64,000 nucleotides of DNA from Anthocerotibacter panamensis C109. Its GTDB lineage: Bacteria; Cyanobacteriota; Cyanobacteriia; Gloeobacterales; Anthocerotibacteraceae. Position numbers and translations under genes: made by a program. The DNA lies in the NCBI RefSeq assembly GCF_018389385.1, contig NZ_CP062698.1, positions 1,801,501-1,865,500 of the forward strand, given 5' to 3'. Positions 52,063 to 60,165 of this stretch are shown here, piece after piece. The notes under the pieces were generated by a model. That model made no database searches, was not told the DNA's origin, and saw only the letters and a list, made by a program, of their open reading frames with translations. Positions within the stretch are counted from its first letter, which is position 1. Every line of letters begins with the position of its first letter.

Positions 52063-52845
52063 TCAAGAGACCCGTTGCTTACGGGCTAGGGGTAGACGAT
52101 GCCAGGGTAGGTGGGGATACTCGTGGTGTTCCCAATGGTAGCCAAAGTGATAACAACTGACTAAGGACCAGAAGACCGGAAAGTTACTGGTCGTGGCGCG
52201 GTGGCGGTCAGTGTAGCCCTGCGGCAGTTCGCGGTGCGGCAGATAGGTCCCGAAATAAAACAGTTGCACCGTACTTAAGACCGTAGGCAATCCCCAGAAG
52301 AGCAGGAGATTGAGTAGGGGGATGTGAAAGCCAAGCAAGAGCGTATAAAACGTGAGATTCATCCCCACCACCATGAAGAGGCTCTCAGGAATATCCTTGA
52401 GGTAATCCTTCATGAAGTTCAGGTACCAGACCAGGGCCGAAGCTCCATCCGCTCCGTGAAAATCCGGGTCCTGAGCGCTGGCAGGGGCACGGTGATGGAG
52501 GCGATGCTTGGCAACCAGTTTCCGGTAAGAAAGAAAGGCGTAGGCGATGACAGCCACAGCCCCAATGCAGTCGTTGAGCTTCCGGTTAGCAGGGCAGACC
52601 GAGCCGTGCATGGCATCGTGGGCGGTGATAAAGAGACCTGTCTGTAAAAAGATCCGCAATAAGACCATAGCCCCAAGGCTCCACAGGGGTACCTGAGCGA
52701 GGTCCATCTGCAACCCCAACCACAGACTGACCACCCATAAGCCCAAAATCCCTAAAGCCAGCACAAGCTCTTTGTAGGGCCCATCGCTCCAGGTTGGTTT
52801 AAAGTGAGGACGACATACCGAGGCCGCGTCCGTGGTACTTTTCAT
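52063..52845 (-). CDS. crtW: Beta-carotene ketolase, CrtW type
   Basis: A 260-residue integral-membrane di-iron enzyme that adds a keto group to carotenoid ionone rings, giving echinenone or canthaxanthin. The three His boxes are present: HDAMHG near residue 95, HRLHHRAPASAQDPDFH near 131, and HWEHHEYPHLPWHRLP near the C-terminus. About four TM helices surround them. The lack of an adjacent crt gene is normal in cyanobacteria. Ketocarotenoids serve in photoprotection. Confidence 0.93.
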   Translation of the reverse strand: MKSTTDAASVCRPHFKPTWSDGPYKELVLALGILGLWVVSLWLGLQMDLAQVPLWSLGAMVLLRIFLQTGLFITAHDAMHGSVCPANRKLNDCIGAVAVIAYAFLSYRKLVAKHRLHHRAPASAQDPDFHGADGASALVWYLNFMKDYLKDIPESLFMVVGMNLTFYTLLLGFHIPLLNLLLFWGLPTVLSTVQLFYFGTYLPHRELPQGYTDRHRATTSNFPVFWSLVSCYHFGYHWEHHEYPHLPWHRLPLARKQRVS

Positions 52846-55158: not shown

Positions 55159-56211
55159 TCACGGGGAAGAGTGGAAGGAACCAACTTCCTCGCGATCCGG
55201 CAGGAGCAAGACCAAGTGGGCGAATTCGATATCGTCATAGTCCGTACCGTTATAGCGGCCTTCTCCATACAAGGCGGCAATTACCGAGGCATCAGCGGTC
55301 TGCCCTGCGGCGCTTGCGGTAACCAAAACCAGTTCGTTGGACCCGATTTTGAGCAGTTTGCGGGTCAGGGGGATGACAATATTATCGCCATTGACGGTGA
55401 TCCGTTGGACTAAAGTTCCATTGAGGTAGACTCGGAAAGCCGCGTTGGGTCCAATGCGGAAGGTATTTTCGACCGGCAGTTGGGATTGACCGGCAGCCAC
55501 CGAATCGGGCGTGTCGATCCCGACTAGCGAACCGATACGTAGGTAGGGGTCCTGGTCAGGAAGTTGGGCAAGTTCGAACGTGCGTTTAAATTGCGATCCC
55601 TCCGACGAACGCCGCAACTGTCCAGCGTTGGCGGAGGTACTGCCAAATTGGTCATCTCCCAGATGATGGACCTGATCGTCCAGGACTATACTCCGGGCGT
55701 TTTTCTGCTCCAACCGCAGATCAAAAGGAGTGCGTTGGTCTTTGCGGGTGGTCAGGGAAAAGGGGGTATAGTTTGGGGCACGCACGGTCAAAATCCGGTT
55801 GGGGGGTAAATTGGGGGGTAGCGTGAAGCGACCCTCGCTATCAGCGGTTACCCGGATTCCCTCCTGAGGAACTTCGATATCCGCCCCACCCAGAGGTTTG
55901 CCTGTCTTTTGGTCAATGACCCGCCCACTCGCGCTCCCAGGTTGGTCCCGGATTGCCACCGGAGCCGCAACCTTGCCTTCCAGACTTTGCCGGAGCAGTT
56001 TCATATCCGCTTGGGTAACCGCGCCATCCTGATTGAGGTCCGCCGCCTGTTGTTGGGCTTCTGTGAATAGCTCCTCGCCCTTCAAGTAGGCTTCTAGGAG
56101 CTGGAGGTCAGCTTGATCCATCCGCCCATCACGATTGAGATCTGCCGCCCAAGCAGCATTCCCTAATACCCATCCGAAGAGCATTAAACCTACCAGAAAT
56201 CGCCACTGCAT
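55159..56211 (-). CDS. Exported dockerin-repeat and carboxypeptidase-regulatory-like protein
   Basis: About 350 residues from ATG 56211 (GGGGA 6 bp upstream). After a signal peptide (FLVGLMLFGWVLGNAAWA) come two calcium-binding dockerin type I repeats: DLNRDGRMDQADLQLLEAYL and DLNQDGAVTQADMKLLRQSL. A CarboxypepD_reg-like beta domain (SASGRVIDQKTGKPLGGADIEVP, then DSEGRFTLPPN) follows near residue 95-165. The C-terminal half is a galactose-binding-like beta region of unknown family. Dockerin pairs bind cohesins in cellulosomes, but no cohesin is present, so the role here is likely another calcium-dependent surface contact. Confidence 0.78.
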   Translation of the reverse strand: MQWRFLVGLMLFGWVLGNAAWAADLNRDGRMDQADLQLLEAYLKGEELFTEAQQQAADLNQDGAVTQADMKLLRQSLEGKVAAPVAIRDQPGSASGRVIDQKTGKPLGGADIEVPQEGIRVTADSEGRFTLPPNLPPNRILTVRAPNYTPFSLTTRKDQRTPFDLRLEQKNARSIVLDDQVHHLGDDQFGSTSANAGQLRRSSEGSQFKRTFELAQLPDQDPYLRIGSLVGIDTPDSVAAGQSQLPVENTFRIGPNAAFRVYLNGTLVQRITVNGDNIVIPLTRKLLKIGSNELVLVTASAAGQTADASVIAALYGEGRYNGTDYDDIEFAHLVLLLPDREEVGSFHSSP

Positions 56212-56514
56212 AGTCATCCCCGGTATATTCCCGCTTCACTGCTCCTAGGGCGATAGCCCCGGCCTTTGACGCATTAAAGGGAATGGGGCAATGGTCAGCG
56301 ATTGGAGCTGTGGAGGCGTCTGCCCAAAGGCACATCTTGGGAAAATTCTACTGCAAGTTCCTTGAGAAGGGGAGGACCGGTTGAGGTCAGTCTTCGGGCT
56401 CCCCATCCGCAGGACTGCGTCTCTCTCTCATCCCGGCTCCTGGAAAGTACGGATACTGGCTTCAGGACGCATGGCTTCCTATAATCATGAGGATCGTCTA
56501 CCAAGAGAAGACCT

Positions 56515-57201
56515 ATGGTCATGGTTGTTCACCGCTCCGCCGGACGCCTTTGGGAGGCTGCTCAGGAGGTCATTGCGGCCCACCACCTGCTCAAACACCC
56601 CTTTTATCAGTTGTGGACGGAGGGGAAACTGCCTCTGGAGGCCCTGCGCTGCTATACCCGCCAATATTTCCATCAGGTCCTGGCCTTCCCGCGTTATCTG
56701 AGCGCAGTCCACGCCCACTGCCCGAACCTCGCGGACCGGCAAGAGATCCTCAGCAACCTCGCCGCAGAAGAGCTGGGTACGGAGAACCACCCCGAATTGT
56801 GGTTACGCTTCGCAGAGGGGCTAGGGGTCGAGCGCAGCACCATGGGAGCGCCCAATCCCCAGACTCAAGAGGCTCTAGCCACCCAACTGCGGCTGAGCCA
56901 ACAGCCAGAGTACGGGGCCGGTCTGGCTGTGGTCTGGGCCTATGAAGTCCAGGTGCCGGAGGTAGCGAGCCAAAAAATCGACGGGCTCACCCGCCACTAT
57001 GGGATTCAGGACGAACGGACGCTGCAATTCTTCCGGGTGCACGCAGTAGCGGACGAACACCACAGCCGCACCGAAGAGGCTATTATCGGACGCTGGGCGG
57101 ACACCTCATTACGGCAAGAAGCGGTCCTGTCAACGGTCACCCAGACGGCTCAAGCGCTCAACCGTATTCTGGATGGGGTCATGATCGAAGCGCGGCTGTA
57201 A
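56515..57201 (+). CDS. CADD-family heme-oxygenase-fold diiron protein
   Basis: A 228-residue all-helical protein of the TenA/PqqC/heme-oxygenase superfamily, closest to the CADD (putative folate metabolism) branch. HPFYQLWTEGKLPLEALRCYTRQYF opens it. Metal-ligand candidates are Glu85 or Glu86, His92 (AAEELGTENHPELW), Glu144, and Asp180, His182 or His183 (ADEHHSRTEE). Residues equivalent to the chlamydial CADD Tyr27, Tyr141 and Lys152 seem to be Tyr31, Tyr143 and Lys154, with the 11-residue spacing of the last two kept. Chlamydial CADD makes para-aminobenzoate from its own side chains. Such an activity here is an inference. Confidence 0.83.
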   Translation: MVMVVHRSAGRLWEAAQEVIAAHHLLKHPFYQLWTEGKLPLEALRCYTRQYFHQVLAFPRYLSAVHAHCPNLADRQEILSNLAAEELGTENHPELWLRFAEGLGVERSTMGAPNPQTQEALATQLRLSQQPEYGAGLAVVWAYEVQVPEVASQKIDGLTRHYGIQDERTLQFFRVHAVADEHHSRTEEAIIGRWADTSLRQEAVLSTVTQTAQALNRILDGVMIEARL

Positions 57202-57205
57202 GGCG

Positions 57206-58498
57206 TTAACCCAAGACAGCAATGGCCGTAAAGCCCTTGCGGGTCAACTTTTCTACCAGGGCTTGGGCGTTGTTTTGGGAGCCAAAGACTCCTACTTGCA
57301 ATACCTCCCGGCCCTGGTAGTTACGGGGCACTACTTTGGGGACAAGGGTCTTGAGCAGTTTGGTGTTGGGTTTGGCGCTTGTCACAAAGACACGGTATTG
57401 GTTGGCGTTGACCGTAGCCGCCGATGCCGCAGCTTTGGGGGTCGGCTTGCTCGGTTTAGCTGGGGGCTTGGGACTGGGCTTGGAGCTGGGCTTGGCGGGC
57501 GGGACCTCGGGCTTGGCTGGAGGTTCCGCTGGAGGTTCCGGCGGTGGTAGTTCCTCTGTCGGGACTGGAGTGACCGTCTCTTCCGTCAGGACATTCCCAA
57601 GGTGAGCCTTGTTAGTGTAGAGATTGCCGTAGGCTGCCACGGGCTCCTGGGAGCGCTTGGCGTTGTTGATATCCGAGAGCCCATTCTGGATAAAGCGGTT
57701 TTGTCCGGGGTCTTCGAGGGTGCCCATATCCGGCTGGGCATCACCTGTGACGGCGATGGCGCTACGCTGATGGCGCTCGAAACGATTTTTGCGGAAGATG
57801 GGCTGGGATTTGTTGAGCACCACCGCCCCGTCCTTGCACTTGCGGATGGTGTTCTCTTCGATCCTGGGTGTGGCCTTGCCATCGATGTTGATGGCAAAGC
57901 CCGTTTCTTCAAAGAGATTACTTTTGACTAGGGGCTGCGCTGTGCTGAGGATGGTGATTCCGTCGGAGCTATTTTTATAGAAGTAATTGTCTAGGATCTG
58001 GGCCTCACTGTTGCCGGTGACCAGGACGCCATCGTTGTTGGAGCCGGTGAAGGTGTTATGGGTCACCAGGGCGTTGGTCCCCTCAATCCAGATGCCAAAG
58101 CCGCGCTTATTGGCGTTGGTTATGGTCAAGCCGCTGATCTTGGTGTCTTTACTGGCGACTAGAGCGACATTTTGACCGGCTACCGTGGGCGAGAGGAATT
58201 TGCCTCCGCCTGTGATCACGATGTCTTTCCCCTTGGTCTCCTCATTGCCGGTGAGGGTGACCCCCGGCGGGACAATCAGGGGGAAGATTTCGCCTGTTTC
58301 AGGGCTGTAGGTCCCCGGACTCACGGAAATCGTGGTACCGGGTCCAGCCTGCTGTAGCGCCTGAGTCAGGGTAAGCCCGCCCTGCGTGACCACCAGATTG
58401 GAGTCCACCGCCAGAAGCGGGAGCAGTAGGGGGGTAGAGAGGACCAAGCCCGTACAAAGCAGGGCTAGAGTCAGTTTTTGGGCAATTCCGCGCACCAT
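57206..58498 (-). CDS. Exported beta-helix (DUF1565-like) and SPOR-domain protein
   Basis: A 430-residue protein from ATG 58498, which has GAGGT 7 bp upstream; a longer in-frame start is less likely. A signal peptide is followed by a right-handed beta-helix (residues 30-300) of DUF1565/NosD type: LTLTQALQQAGPGTTISVSPGTY, then repeats with NxFxxxxxDGVxV patterns. A Pro/Lys/Ser-rich linker follows (about residues 300-360). The C-terminal 75 residues have SPOR-domain character (QYRVFV, then LQVGVFGSQNNAQALVEKLTRKGF). SPOR domains bind denuded peptidoglycan glycan strands. A cell-wall-bound protein with a carbohydrate-binding helix is the likely reading. Confidence 0.82.
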   Translation of the reverse strand: MVRGIAQKLTLALLCTGLVLSTPLLLPLLAVDSNLVVTQGGLTLTQALQQAGPGTTISVSPGTYSPETGEIFPLIVPPGVTLTGNEETKGKDIVITGGGKFLSPTVAGQNVALVASKDTKISGLTITNANKRGFGIWIEGTNALVTHNTFTGSNNDGVLVTGNSEAQILDNYFYKNSSDGITILSTAQPLVKSNLFEETGFAINIDGKATPRIEENTIRKCKDGAVVLNKSQPIFRKNRFERHQRSAIAVTGDAQPDMGTLEDPGQNRFIQNGLSDINNAKRSQEPVAAYGNLYTNKAHLGNVLTEETVTPVPTEELPPPEPPAEPPAKPEVPPAKPSSKPSPKPPAKPSKPTPKAAASAATVNANQYRVFVTSAKPNTKLLKTLVPKVVPRNYQGREVLQVGVFGSQNNAQALVEKLTRKGFTAIAVLG

Positions 58499-58710
58499 CG
58501 CAAACCTCGTTGCTGAAAGGGCAACTGTTATGAGTTGGGCTGATCCTAGCAAAGATCTCCTCTAGAATCTCCCCAAAAACAATATTTTGACACTACTGGT
58601 GGTGTTATTTTCATTCTGCTTTCTACAGGTTGTGGTTATCCCTGAGCGATGCAAAGATGGGGCTGGTGCGTCTTCGGGGAGAGGAGCCCGTTGCGGTACA
58701 ATACCTTCCC

Positions 58711-60165
58711 ATGACGCTATTGCCGCCTGTCCCTGCTCAAGAAGACCTCTACCGTGCCCACCGGGACGCTATTGCCAAACACTTTGACCGCTTCGCGCCG
58801 GAGCGGGACCGTTGGCGGGAGCGGGGGGCTTACTATCACGACGATTTGACTCGGGTGTGCCGCTTTGTCATTCCGGTGGGGGCACGGGTCTTGGAGGTCG
58901 GCTGTAGCACCGGATCGCTGCTTGCGAGCCTGGAGCCGGGGTATGGGGTGGGCATTGACATCAGTGCCGAGAGTATCGCTTTTGCCCGCACCCGCTACCC
59001 GCATCTGCATTTTCACCACGCGGATGTCGAGGAGTTTAGACCGGCAGAGACCTTTGAATATATCGTCCTCGCTGGGACCATTGGCTATCTCTCCGATTTG
59101 CAGCGTACCCTCGCCGCTCTGTGCACTCTGTGCACGCCACGCACCCGCTTGCTGATTGTGCACCACAGCTATCTGTGGGAACCCCTATTGCGCCTGGGTC
59201 AGAAGTTGGGGCTGCGGATGCCCCAGCCGGCGGAGAATTGGCTCAGTGCTGATGATTTGGTCAATCTGCTTCAGTTGGGTGGGTTTGAGACCGTCAAGCG
59301 CGGTCGGCGCTTGCTCTGTCCGGTCAATCTGGGTCCGCTGAGTACCCTGCTCAATCGCTTCCTCGCGCCGCTACCTTGGCTCAATCAGCTCTGTCTGAGC
59401 AATGTGCTGATCGCCCGTCCCTTTCCCCAACCCCAGGCGGAGCAACCTTCGGTCTCCATTATCATTCCAGCACGCAATGAGCGCGGCAATATTGAGAATG
59501 CCCTGGCCCTCATGCCGCGCCTAGGCTGCCACACCCAGGTCATCTATGTGGAGGGCCATTCTAAGGATGATACTTGGGGCGAAATCCAACGGGTAGCCCA
59601 GCACTATGGCGACCAATGGGATATTCAAACCCTCCAGCAGACTGGCAAGGGCAAAGGCGATGCCGTGCGTCTTGGGTTTGCCAAGGCGACAGGCGCCATC
59701 GTCATGATCTTGGATGCGGACCTGACGGTTGCACCCCCGGATATGGAGAAATTTTACGCGGCGTTAGTCAGTGGTCAGGCGGAATTTGCCAACGGCTCCC
59801 GGCTGGTCTACCCCCGTTCGGCCCAAGCTATGCCTTGGCTCAATACCGCCGCCAACAAATTCTTTGGGCTGGCTTTCAGCTATCTGTTAGACCAACGGTT
59901 CAAAGATACGCTGTGCGGTACCAAAGCGCTTTGGCGCGAGGACTACGAACGCATTGCTCAGGGGCGCAGCTACTTCGGCGACTTTGACCCGTTTGGTGAC
60001 TTCGACCTGCTCTTTGGGGCAGCCAAGCTCAATCTCAAGATCCTCGATGTCCCGGTGCGCTACCACGAGCGAGTCTACGGCCAATCTAATATCCAACATG
60101 TCCGGGAAGGACTGATTTTGTTGAAGATGTGTCTGTACGCGTTGCGTAAAATCAAGTTTGTCTAG
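58711..60165 (+). CDS. SAM methyltransferase fused to a family-2 glycosyltransferase
   Basis: About 484 residues from ATG 58711 (MTLLPPVPAQEDLYRAHRDAIAKHF); upstream in-frame starts at 58630 and 58657 exist. The N-terminal half (residues 50-210) is a class-I methyltransferase with motif I VLEVGCSTGSLLASLEPGYGVGIDIS. The C-terminal half (residues 245-480) is a GT-A glycosyltransferase: PSVSIIIPARNERGNIENAL, then YVEGHSKDDTW, GKGKGDAVRLGF and the metal motif MILDADLTV. A later DFDPFGDFDLL segment completes it. The fusion suggests a polysaccharide or lipid-linked-sugar enzyme that methylates and extends a glycan. No TM segment is present. Confidence 0.85.
   Translation: MTLLPPVPAQEDLYRAHRDAIAKHFDRFAPERDRWRERGAYYHDDLTRVCRFVIPVGARVLEVGCSTGSLLASLEPGYGVGIDISAESIAFARTRYPHLHFHHADVEEFRPAETFEYIVLAGTIGYLSDLQRTLAALCTLCTPRTRLLIVHHSYLWEPLLRLGQKLGLRMPQPAENWLSADDLVNLLQLGGFETVKRGRRLLCPVNLGPLSTLLNRFLAPLPWLNQLCLSNVLIARPFPQPQAEQPSVSIIIPARNERGNIENALALMPRLGCHTQVIYVEGHSKDDTWGEIQRVAQHYGDQWDIQTLQQTGKGKGDAVRLGFAKATGAIVMILDADLTVAPPDMEKFYAALVSGQAEFANGSRLVYPRSAQAMPWLNTAANKFFGLAFSYLLDQRFKDTLCGTKALWREDYERIAQGRSYFGDFDPFGDFDLLFGAAKLNLKILDVPVRYHERVYGQSNIQHVREGLILLKMCLYALRKIKFV

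Follow-up and report, generated by a model that had tools for sequence, protein, structure and literature searches.

A predicted self-sacrificing para-aminobenzoate synthase of the CADD type in a cyanobacterium without recognisable pabB and pabC

How does a cyanobacterium supply para-aminobenzoate (pABA) for folate when its genome holds no recognisable pabB or pabC? The question is raised by one gene in a 64,000-nucleotide stretch of the Anthocerotibacter panamensis C109 genome (hereafter the window), located at 56515..57201 on the plus strand. An earlier note had called an open reading frame there and proposed that its CADD-type product could be a chorismate-independent source of pABA. The open reading frame is real, with exactly these coordinates, and its translation and family match define a pabS/CADD-type gene of 228 codons. 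Taken together, sequence, structural model and genome comparison indicate that the product of this gene is very probably a CADD/PabS-type, self-sacrificing pABA synthase, a member of the heme-oxygenase-like dimetal oxidase superfamily, and would be the only pABA source for folate that can be recognised in the host. The kind of enzyme is already known from CADD and NePabS; the cyanobacterial role seems to be unreported. We found no report of a CADD/PabS role in cyanobacteria in the open-access literature searched, and the likely relatives named in PMC11965152 are Wolbachia, Rickettsia, Chloroflexi, Sphingomonas and Nitrosomonas, with cyanobacteria not among them.

The window protein matched the NCBIfam model of the CADD family (TIGR04305) at 241.3 bits, above the cut-off of 200 (E = 7.9e-72), and its best sequence matches in the PDB were 4-aminobenzoate synthases: 9pj4 (E = 6.3e-49), 1rcw (3.8e-38) and 8va9 (5e-38). 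An AlphaFold2 model built from 41 homologues (mean pLDDT 95.7) predicted a heme-oxygenase-like helical bundle of the CtCADD type, and its top Foldseek matches were the CtCADD structures 8va9, 8vag and 1rcw (TM 0.89/0.94, rmsd 1.3). Although the superfamily fold is shared with PqqC, BesC, UndA, FlcD and other heme-oxygenase-like oxidases, their fold matches were less similar than those of CtCADD, and the window protein fell far below the cut-offs for PqqC (TIGR02111; 46.6 vs 240 bits) and BesC (NF042919; 24.7 vs 500 bits). Score and fold thus bear out the CADD-type assignment of the earlier note. CtCADD (CT610 of Chlamydia trachomatis; PDB 1RCW, 8VA9) agrees with the window protein in fold and in its six metal ligands at ~33% identity in the structural match, but it serves an intracellular pathogen, whereas the window host is a free-living oxygenic phototroph. 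The sequence of PDB chain 9pj4 ("4-aminobenzoate synthase") closely matches the published peptides of NePabS (NE1434 of Nitrosomonas europaea) and carries an insertion of about nine residues that the window protein lacks.

We counted residue conservation in an alignment of 44 members of the family, drawn from about ten phyla. The six residues that we take, after 1RCW, to be the metal ligands correspond to Glu85 (56767..56769, plus strand as for all codons given here), His92 (56788..56790), Glu144 (56944..56946) and His176, Asp180 and His183 (within 57040..57063), and each is invariant (44/44). They make up three histidines and three carboxylates, the composition described for the CADD-type metal site (PMC11965152). 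Equally invariant (44/44) are Tyr31 (56605..56607) and Lys154 (56974..56976), which align with the published sacrificed pairs Tyr27/Lys152 of CtCADD and Tyr25/Lys159 of NePabS (PMC11965152), Lys152 and Lys159 being the amine donors. The same holds for Tyr47 (56653..56655), equivalent to the essential Tyr43 of CtCADD and Tyr41 of NePabS, and for Tyr51 (56665..56667) and Trp96 (56800..56802), which correspond to Tyr45 and Trp99 on the proposed radical path of NePabS.

The earlier note had rested on the metal ligands and on Tyr143 and Lys154, 11 residues apart like Tyr141 and Lys152 of CADD. Ligands and pair are present, but Tyr143 is not the key tyrosine, because the published sacrificed residue is Tyr27/Tyr25, the equivalent of Tyr31, which that note did not mention. 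We discarded the spacing as evidence: alone it is weak, since a Tyr-x10-Lys pair occurs in ~9% of shuffles of the protein, and Tyr143 varies in the family; the family match counts instead. A contrast is offered by HDO paralogues, CADD-like proteins below the family cut-off in PabB-bearing genomes of other cyanobacteria (e.g., L014, L018 and L050), which keep all six metal ligands as the window protein does but, unlike it, lack Tyr31, Tyr47 and Lys154.

The host genome is complete, comprising a single contig of 4,187,797 bases (99.99% complete), and profile searches found neither pabB nor pabC in it. Its one chorismate-binding enzyme (Chorismate_bind) is TrpE (TIGR00564; 540 bits, above 517.7), and its one class-IV aminotransferase over the cut-off (Aminotran_4) is IlvE (307 bits, above 245.6); "no PabC" here means that the one aminotransferase present scores as IlvE, PabC-type enzymes being hard to separate by sequence. 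FolP is present. The complete chorismate-based pABA pathway that the earlier note had named as evidence against its proposal was therefore not found, and the proposed function gains support from the missing PabB and PabC and the retained FolP. Its wording as "chorismate-independent" does not stand: what the route would bypass is aminodeoxychorismate synthase and lyase, and the tyrosine that it uses is itself made from chorismate.

The same pattern, CADD without pabB and pabC, was found in the sister Cyanaurora, where genome G292 and Candidatus Cyanaurora vandensis have identical CADD proteins. Across nine Gloeobacterales genomes, the two with CADD each contain a single chorismate-binding enzyme and a single aminotransferase, and the seven without CADD have two of each, the second chorismate-binding enzyme being PabB-like and the second aminotransferase not IlvE. 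As a separate observation, no isochorismate synthase-type enzyme was found in these nine genomes. With at most two chorismate-binding matches per genome (TrpE and PabB), the whole order seems to lack the MenF route to phylloquinone/menaquinone.

Beyond this order, CADD exceeded the cut-off in nine of 292 cyanobacterial genomes, and in the eight other than the window's neither PabB nor a second aminotransferase was found. All six comparison genomes without an over-cut-off CADD contained PabB. Nor was PabB found in eight further CADD-bearing cyanobacteria (Planktothrix, Okeania, Trichodesmium, Lyngbya, Spirulina, Microcoleus, Tychonema and Coleofasciculus) or in six CADD-bearing genomes from other phyla, several of these further genomes being metagenome-assembled and possibly incomplete. 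In total, PabB occurred in 0/18 CADD-bearing and 13/13 CADD-lacking cyanobacteria examined (Fisher p = 4.8e-9 for all 31 genomes and 8.7e-7 for the first 23), values that ignore shared ancestry in a related, non-random sample with fewer independent contrasts. Such contrasts are Anthocerotibacteraceae against Gloeobacteraceae, G203 and G039 against G099 within genus g13, and G060 against G185 and G289 within family f15. Every cyanobacterial genome examined with PF00425 had either CADD or PabB, and none had neither.

Two choices shaped these counts. A phylum-wide PabB count by NF004610 (54/292 genomes; 0/9 with CADD) was demoted from main statistic to check, because this model catches one cyanobacterial PabB type and others occur in L069 and L084. 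Additional chorismate-binding enzymes, a third one in G129 and two more in Lyngbya aestuarii, were rejected as PabB, since they classify as salicylate-synthase-like and TrpE-clade3. On the model itself, NF004610 is named "anthranilate synthase component I" and best fits a cyanobacterial PabB clade; two of three matching proteins tested exceeded the PabB-clade2 cut-off, the match in G099 adjoins a second class-IV aminotransferase gene, and the name looks wrong. Salicylate-synthase-like enzymes were seen in three CADD-bearing cyanobacteria, G129 (L091; 323 bits against a cut-off of 325), Lyngbya aestuarii (L217) and Coleofasciculus (L222), and are perhaps siderophore-related. PabAa is reported to be missing from Rhopalodian diatom endosymbionts, for which no source of pABA is named (PMC12903740).

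The converse event was observed in the Microcoleaceae. G099, which shares its genus with the CADD-bearing G203 and G039, has a pabB adjoining a second aminotransferase gene and retains only a CADD remnant (L025, G099 C1:3114802-3117897, around 1486-1605). This pseudogene comprises ~40 codons, has lost its ATG and sits at the syntenic site of the intact gene of its congeners (L007 and L009), between flanks that are 85–89% identical. Thus, CADD has decayed in G099, where pabB and pabC are present, those genes having been kept or regained.

These distributions bear on whether the host might instead take pABA or folate from its surroundings, be it the plant host or neighbours, with the CADD-like protein serving as an oxidase of other function. 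Some cyanobacteria possess folate carriers of the Slr0642 type (PMC1971073), and the CADD gene has no folate-gene neighbourhood, both of which would fit uptake. We nevertheless consider it improbable, given that PabB loss goes hand in hand with CADD in cyanobacteria that are free-living and unrelated, Planktothrix and Microcoleus for example, that no cyanobacterial genome examined with PF00425 lacked both proteins, that the sacrificed residues are invariant in CADD and lost in the HDO paralogues, and that CADD decays where pabB and pabC are present.

How a CADD/PabS-type synthase would make pABA can be projected from CtCADD and NePabS. The dimetal site (E85, H92, E144, H176, D180, H183) would activate O2, and a radical would travel via the aromatic residues Y51, W96 and Y143, with Y47 essential, to Tyr31. 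The side chain of Tyr31 would be cleaved between C-alpha and C-beta, leaving glycine, and oxidation with O2-derived oxygen would turn its ring carbon into the carboxylate. Lys154 would donate the amine and become aminoadipate, so that each protein molecule would yield at most one pABA, which FolP would then use. That a protein of this family can supply pABA in a cell is known for NePabS, since an E. coli pabABC deletion is rescued by ne1434 (PMC11965152). Catalysis of the ordinary multi-turnover kind, acting on a free small molecule with no self-sacrifice, might be suggested by the low in vitro yields of NePabS (<0.1 per monomer), for which unknown activators have been suggested (PMC11965152). 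Yet both characterised relatives are self-sacrificing, with modified peptides detected by mass spectrometry, and addition of chorismate, tyrosine or 4-hydroxybenzoate did not increase NePabS activity (PMC11965152). With the sacrificed Tyr and Lys invariant in the alignment as well, multi-turnover catalysis seems very unlikely. A disguised chorismate route, with TrpE supplying the aminodeoxychorismate synthase activity and IlvE that of the lyase, is extremely unlikely: TrpE does reach 357 bits on PabB-clade2 (cut-off 408.6), IlvE gives weak lyase matches and a bifunctional lyase/transaminase, Rv0812, has been described in mycobacteria (PMC8105722), but TrpE scores above its own cut-off and below those for PabB, and orthologues of TrpE and IlvE occur alongside a distinct PabB and another aminotransferase in 7/7 sister genomes.

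Two positions linked to metal choice vary among the homologues. CADD position 141 (Phe148 in NePabS) sets metal preference together with position 170 (Phe177) (PMC11965152). In the window protein these are Tyr143 (56941..56943; Tyr in 37/44, Phe in 7/44), which agrees with Tyr141 of CtCADD and differs from Phe148 of NePabS, and Phe172 (57028..57030; Phe in 40/44, Tyr in 4/44), which agrees with Phe177 of NePabS and differs from Tyr170 of CtCADD. The Tyr/Phe pair of the window protein occurs in 33 of the 44 aligned homologues and is the commonest state of the site. The NePabS F148Y variant carries the same pair and has similar activity with Fe/Fe and Mn/Fe (PMC11965152), and the window enzyme is therefore predicted to accept both metal pairs. 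We found no assay of a natural Tyr/Phe enzyme in the literature searched, and such a predicted site could be used to test the proposed rule of metal choice.

A phylogenetic tree of 54 CADD proteins, several of whose branches are long, placed the cyanobacterial sequences in three separate groups, each with 100/100 support: the window protein with Cyanaurora, on a long stem; Spirulina with Microcoleaceae; and Coleofasciculus with G060, inside a group that contains Nitrosomonadaceae. On the well-supported branches the cyanobacterial label must change at least twice, and the best tree gives three changes. On this basis we put forward, as a joint proposal that is rather more probable than its negation, that a single-turnover, self-consuming protein replaced the chorismate-based pABA branch at least three times in cyanobacteria (in Anthocerotibacteraceae; in Spirulina/Microcoleaceae, including Planktothrix, Okeania, Trichodesmium and Microcoleus; and in Coleofasciculus and a second genome with a Nitrosomonas-like copy), that CADD was lost at least once in a relative bearing pabB and pabC, and that the characterised Tyr/Tyr and Phe/Phe enzymes may be unusual ends of the family, because Tyr/Phe is its commonest state.

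If the assignment is correct, vitamin-precursor biosynthesis at the cost of one protein per molecule would extend to oxygenic phototrophs, from the basal Gloeobacterales, here a thylakoid-less host that has lost the usual pABA genes, to the bloom-formers Planktothrix and Trichodesmium. CADD would fill a gap in folate synthesis otherwise apparent in CADD-bearing cyanobacterial genomes, which are predicted to belong to organisms that resist inhibitors of aminodeoxychorismate synthase and need O2 for pABA. A long-open question, why and how a cell gives up an inexpensive catalytic pathway in favour of one that consumes its own enzyme, would thereby become testable, and G099, with a dead CADD gene beside congeners that would depend on CADD, offers a natural experiment.

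Genome neighbourhood was dropped as functional evidence. The gene stands isolated between 55159-56217 and 57206-58552, both on the minus strand and neither a folate gene, and thus lies outside any folate gene cluster, unlike that of CtCADD. Cyanaurora CADD likewise adjoins no folate genes and has different neighbours, and no neighbour was common to the window locus and the other cyanobacterial CADD loci compared. In Microcoleus vaginatus and a relative (L153:2245-4433; L186), two CobW-family G3E GTPases (metallochaperone-like) are encoded ~1.5–4 kb upstream of CADD; a connection with metal loading is conceivable but unsupported. At 61%, the GC content of the window gene lies slightly above the average for the window (56%) and does not point to recent arrival. 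A perfect TATAAT hexamer at 56480..56485 (plus strand), ~30 bases upstream of the start codon, was noticed by eye as a weak candidate for a −10 element; it lacks a good −35 and was not called by a promoter scan. Elsewhere in the window, 55159-56217 (minus strand) encodes a protein with type I dockerin and carboxypeptidase-regulatory-like domains, in a cyanobacterial host, 58630-60165 (plus strand) a methyltransferase fused to a family 2 glycosyltransferase, and 52063-52845 (minus strand) a CrtW-like beta-carotene ketolase scoring 305 bits, just under the curated cut-off of 350.
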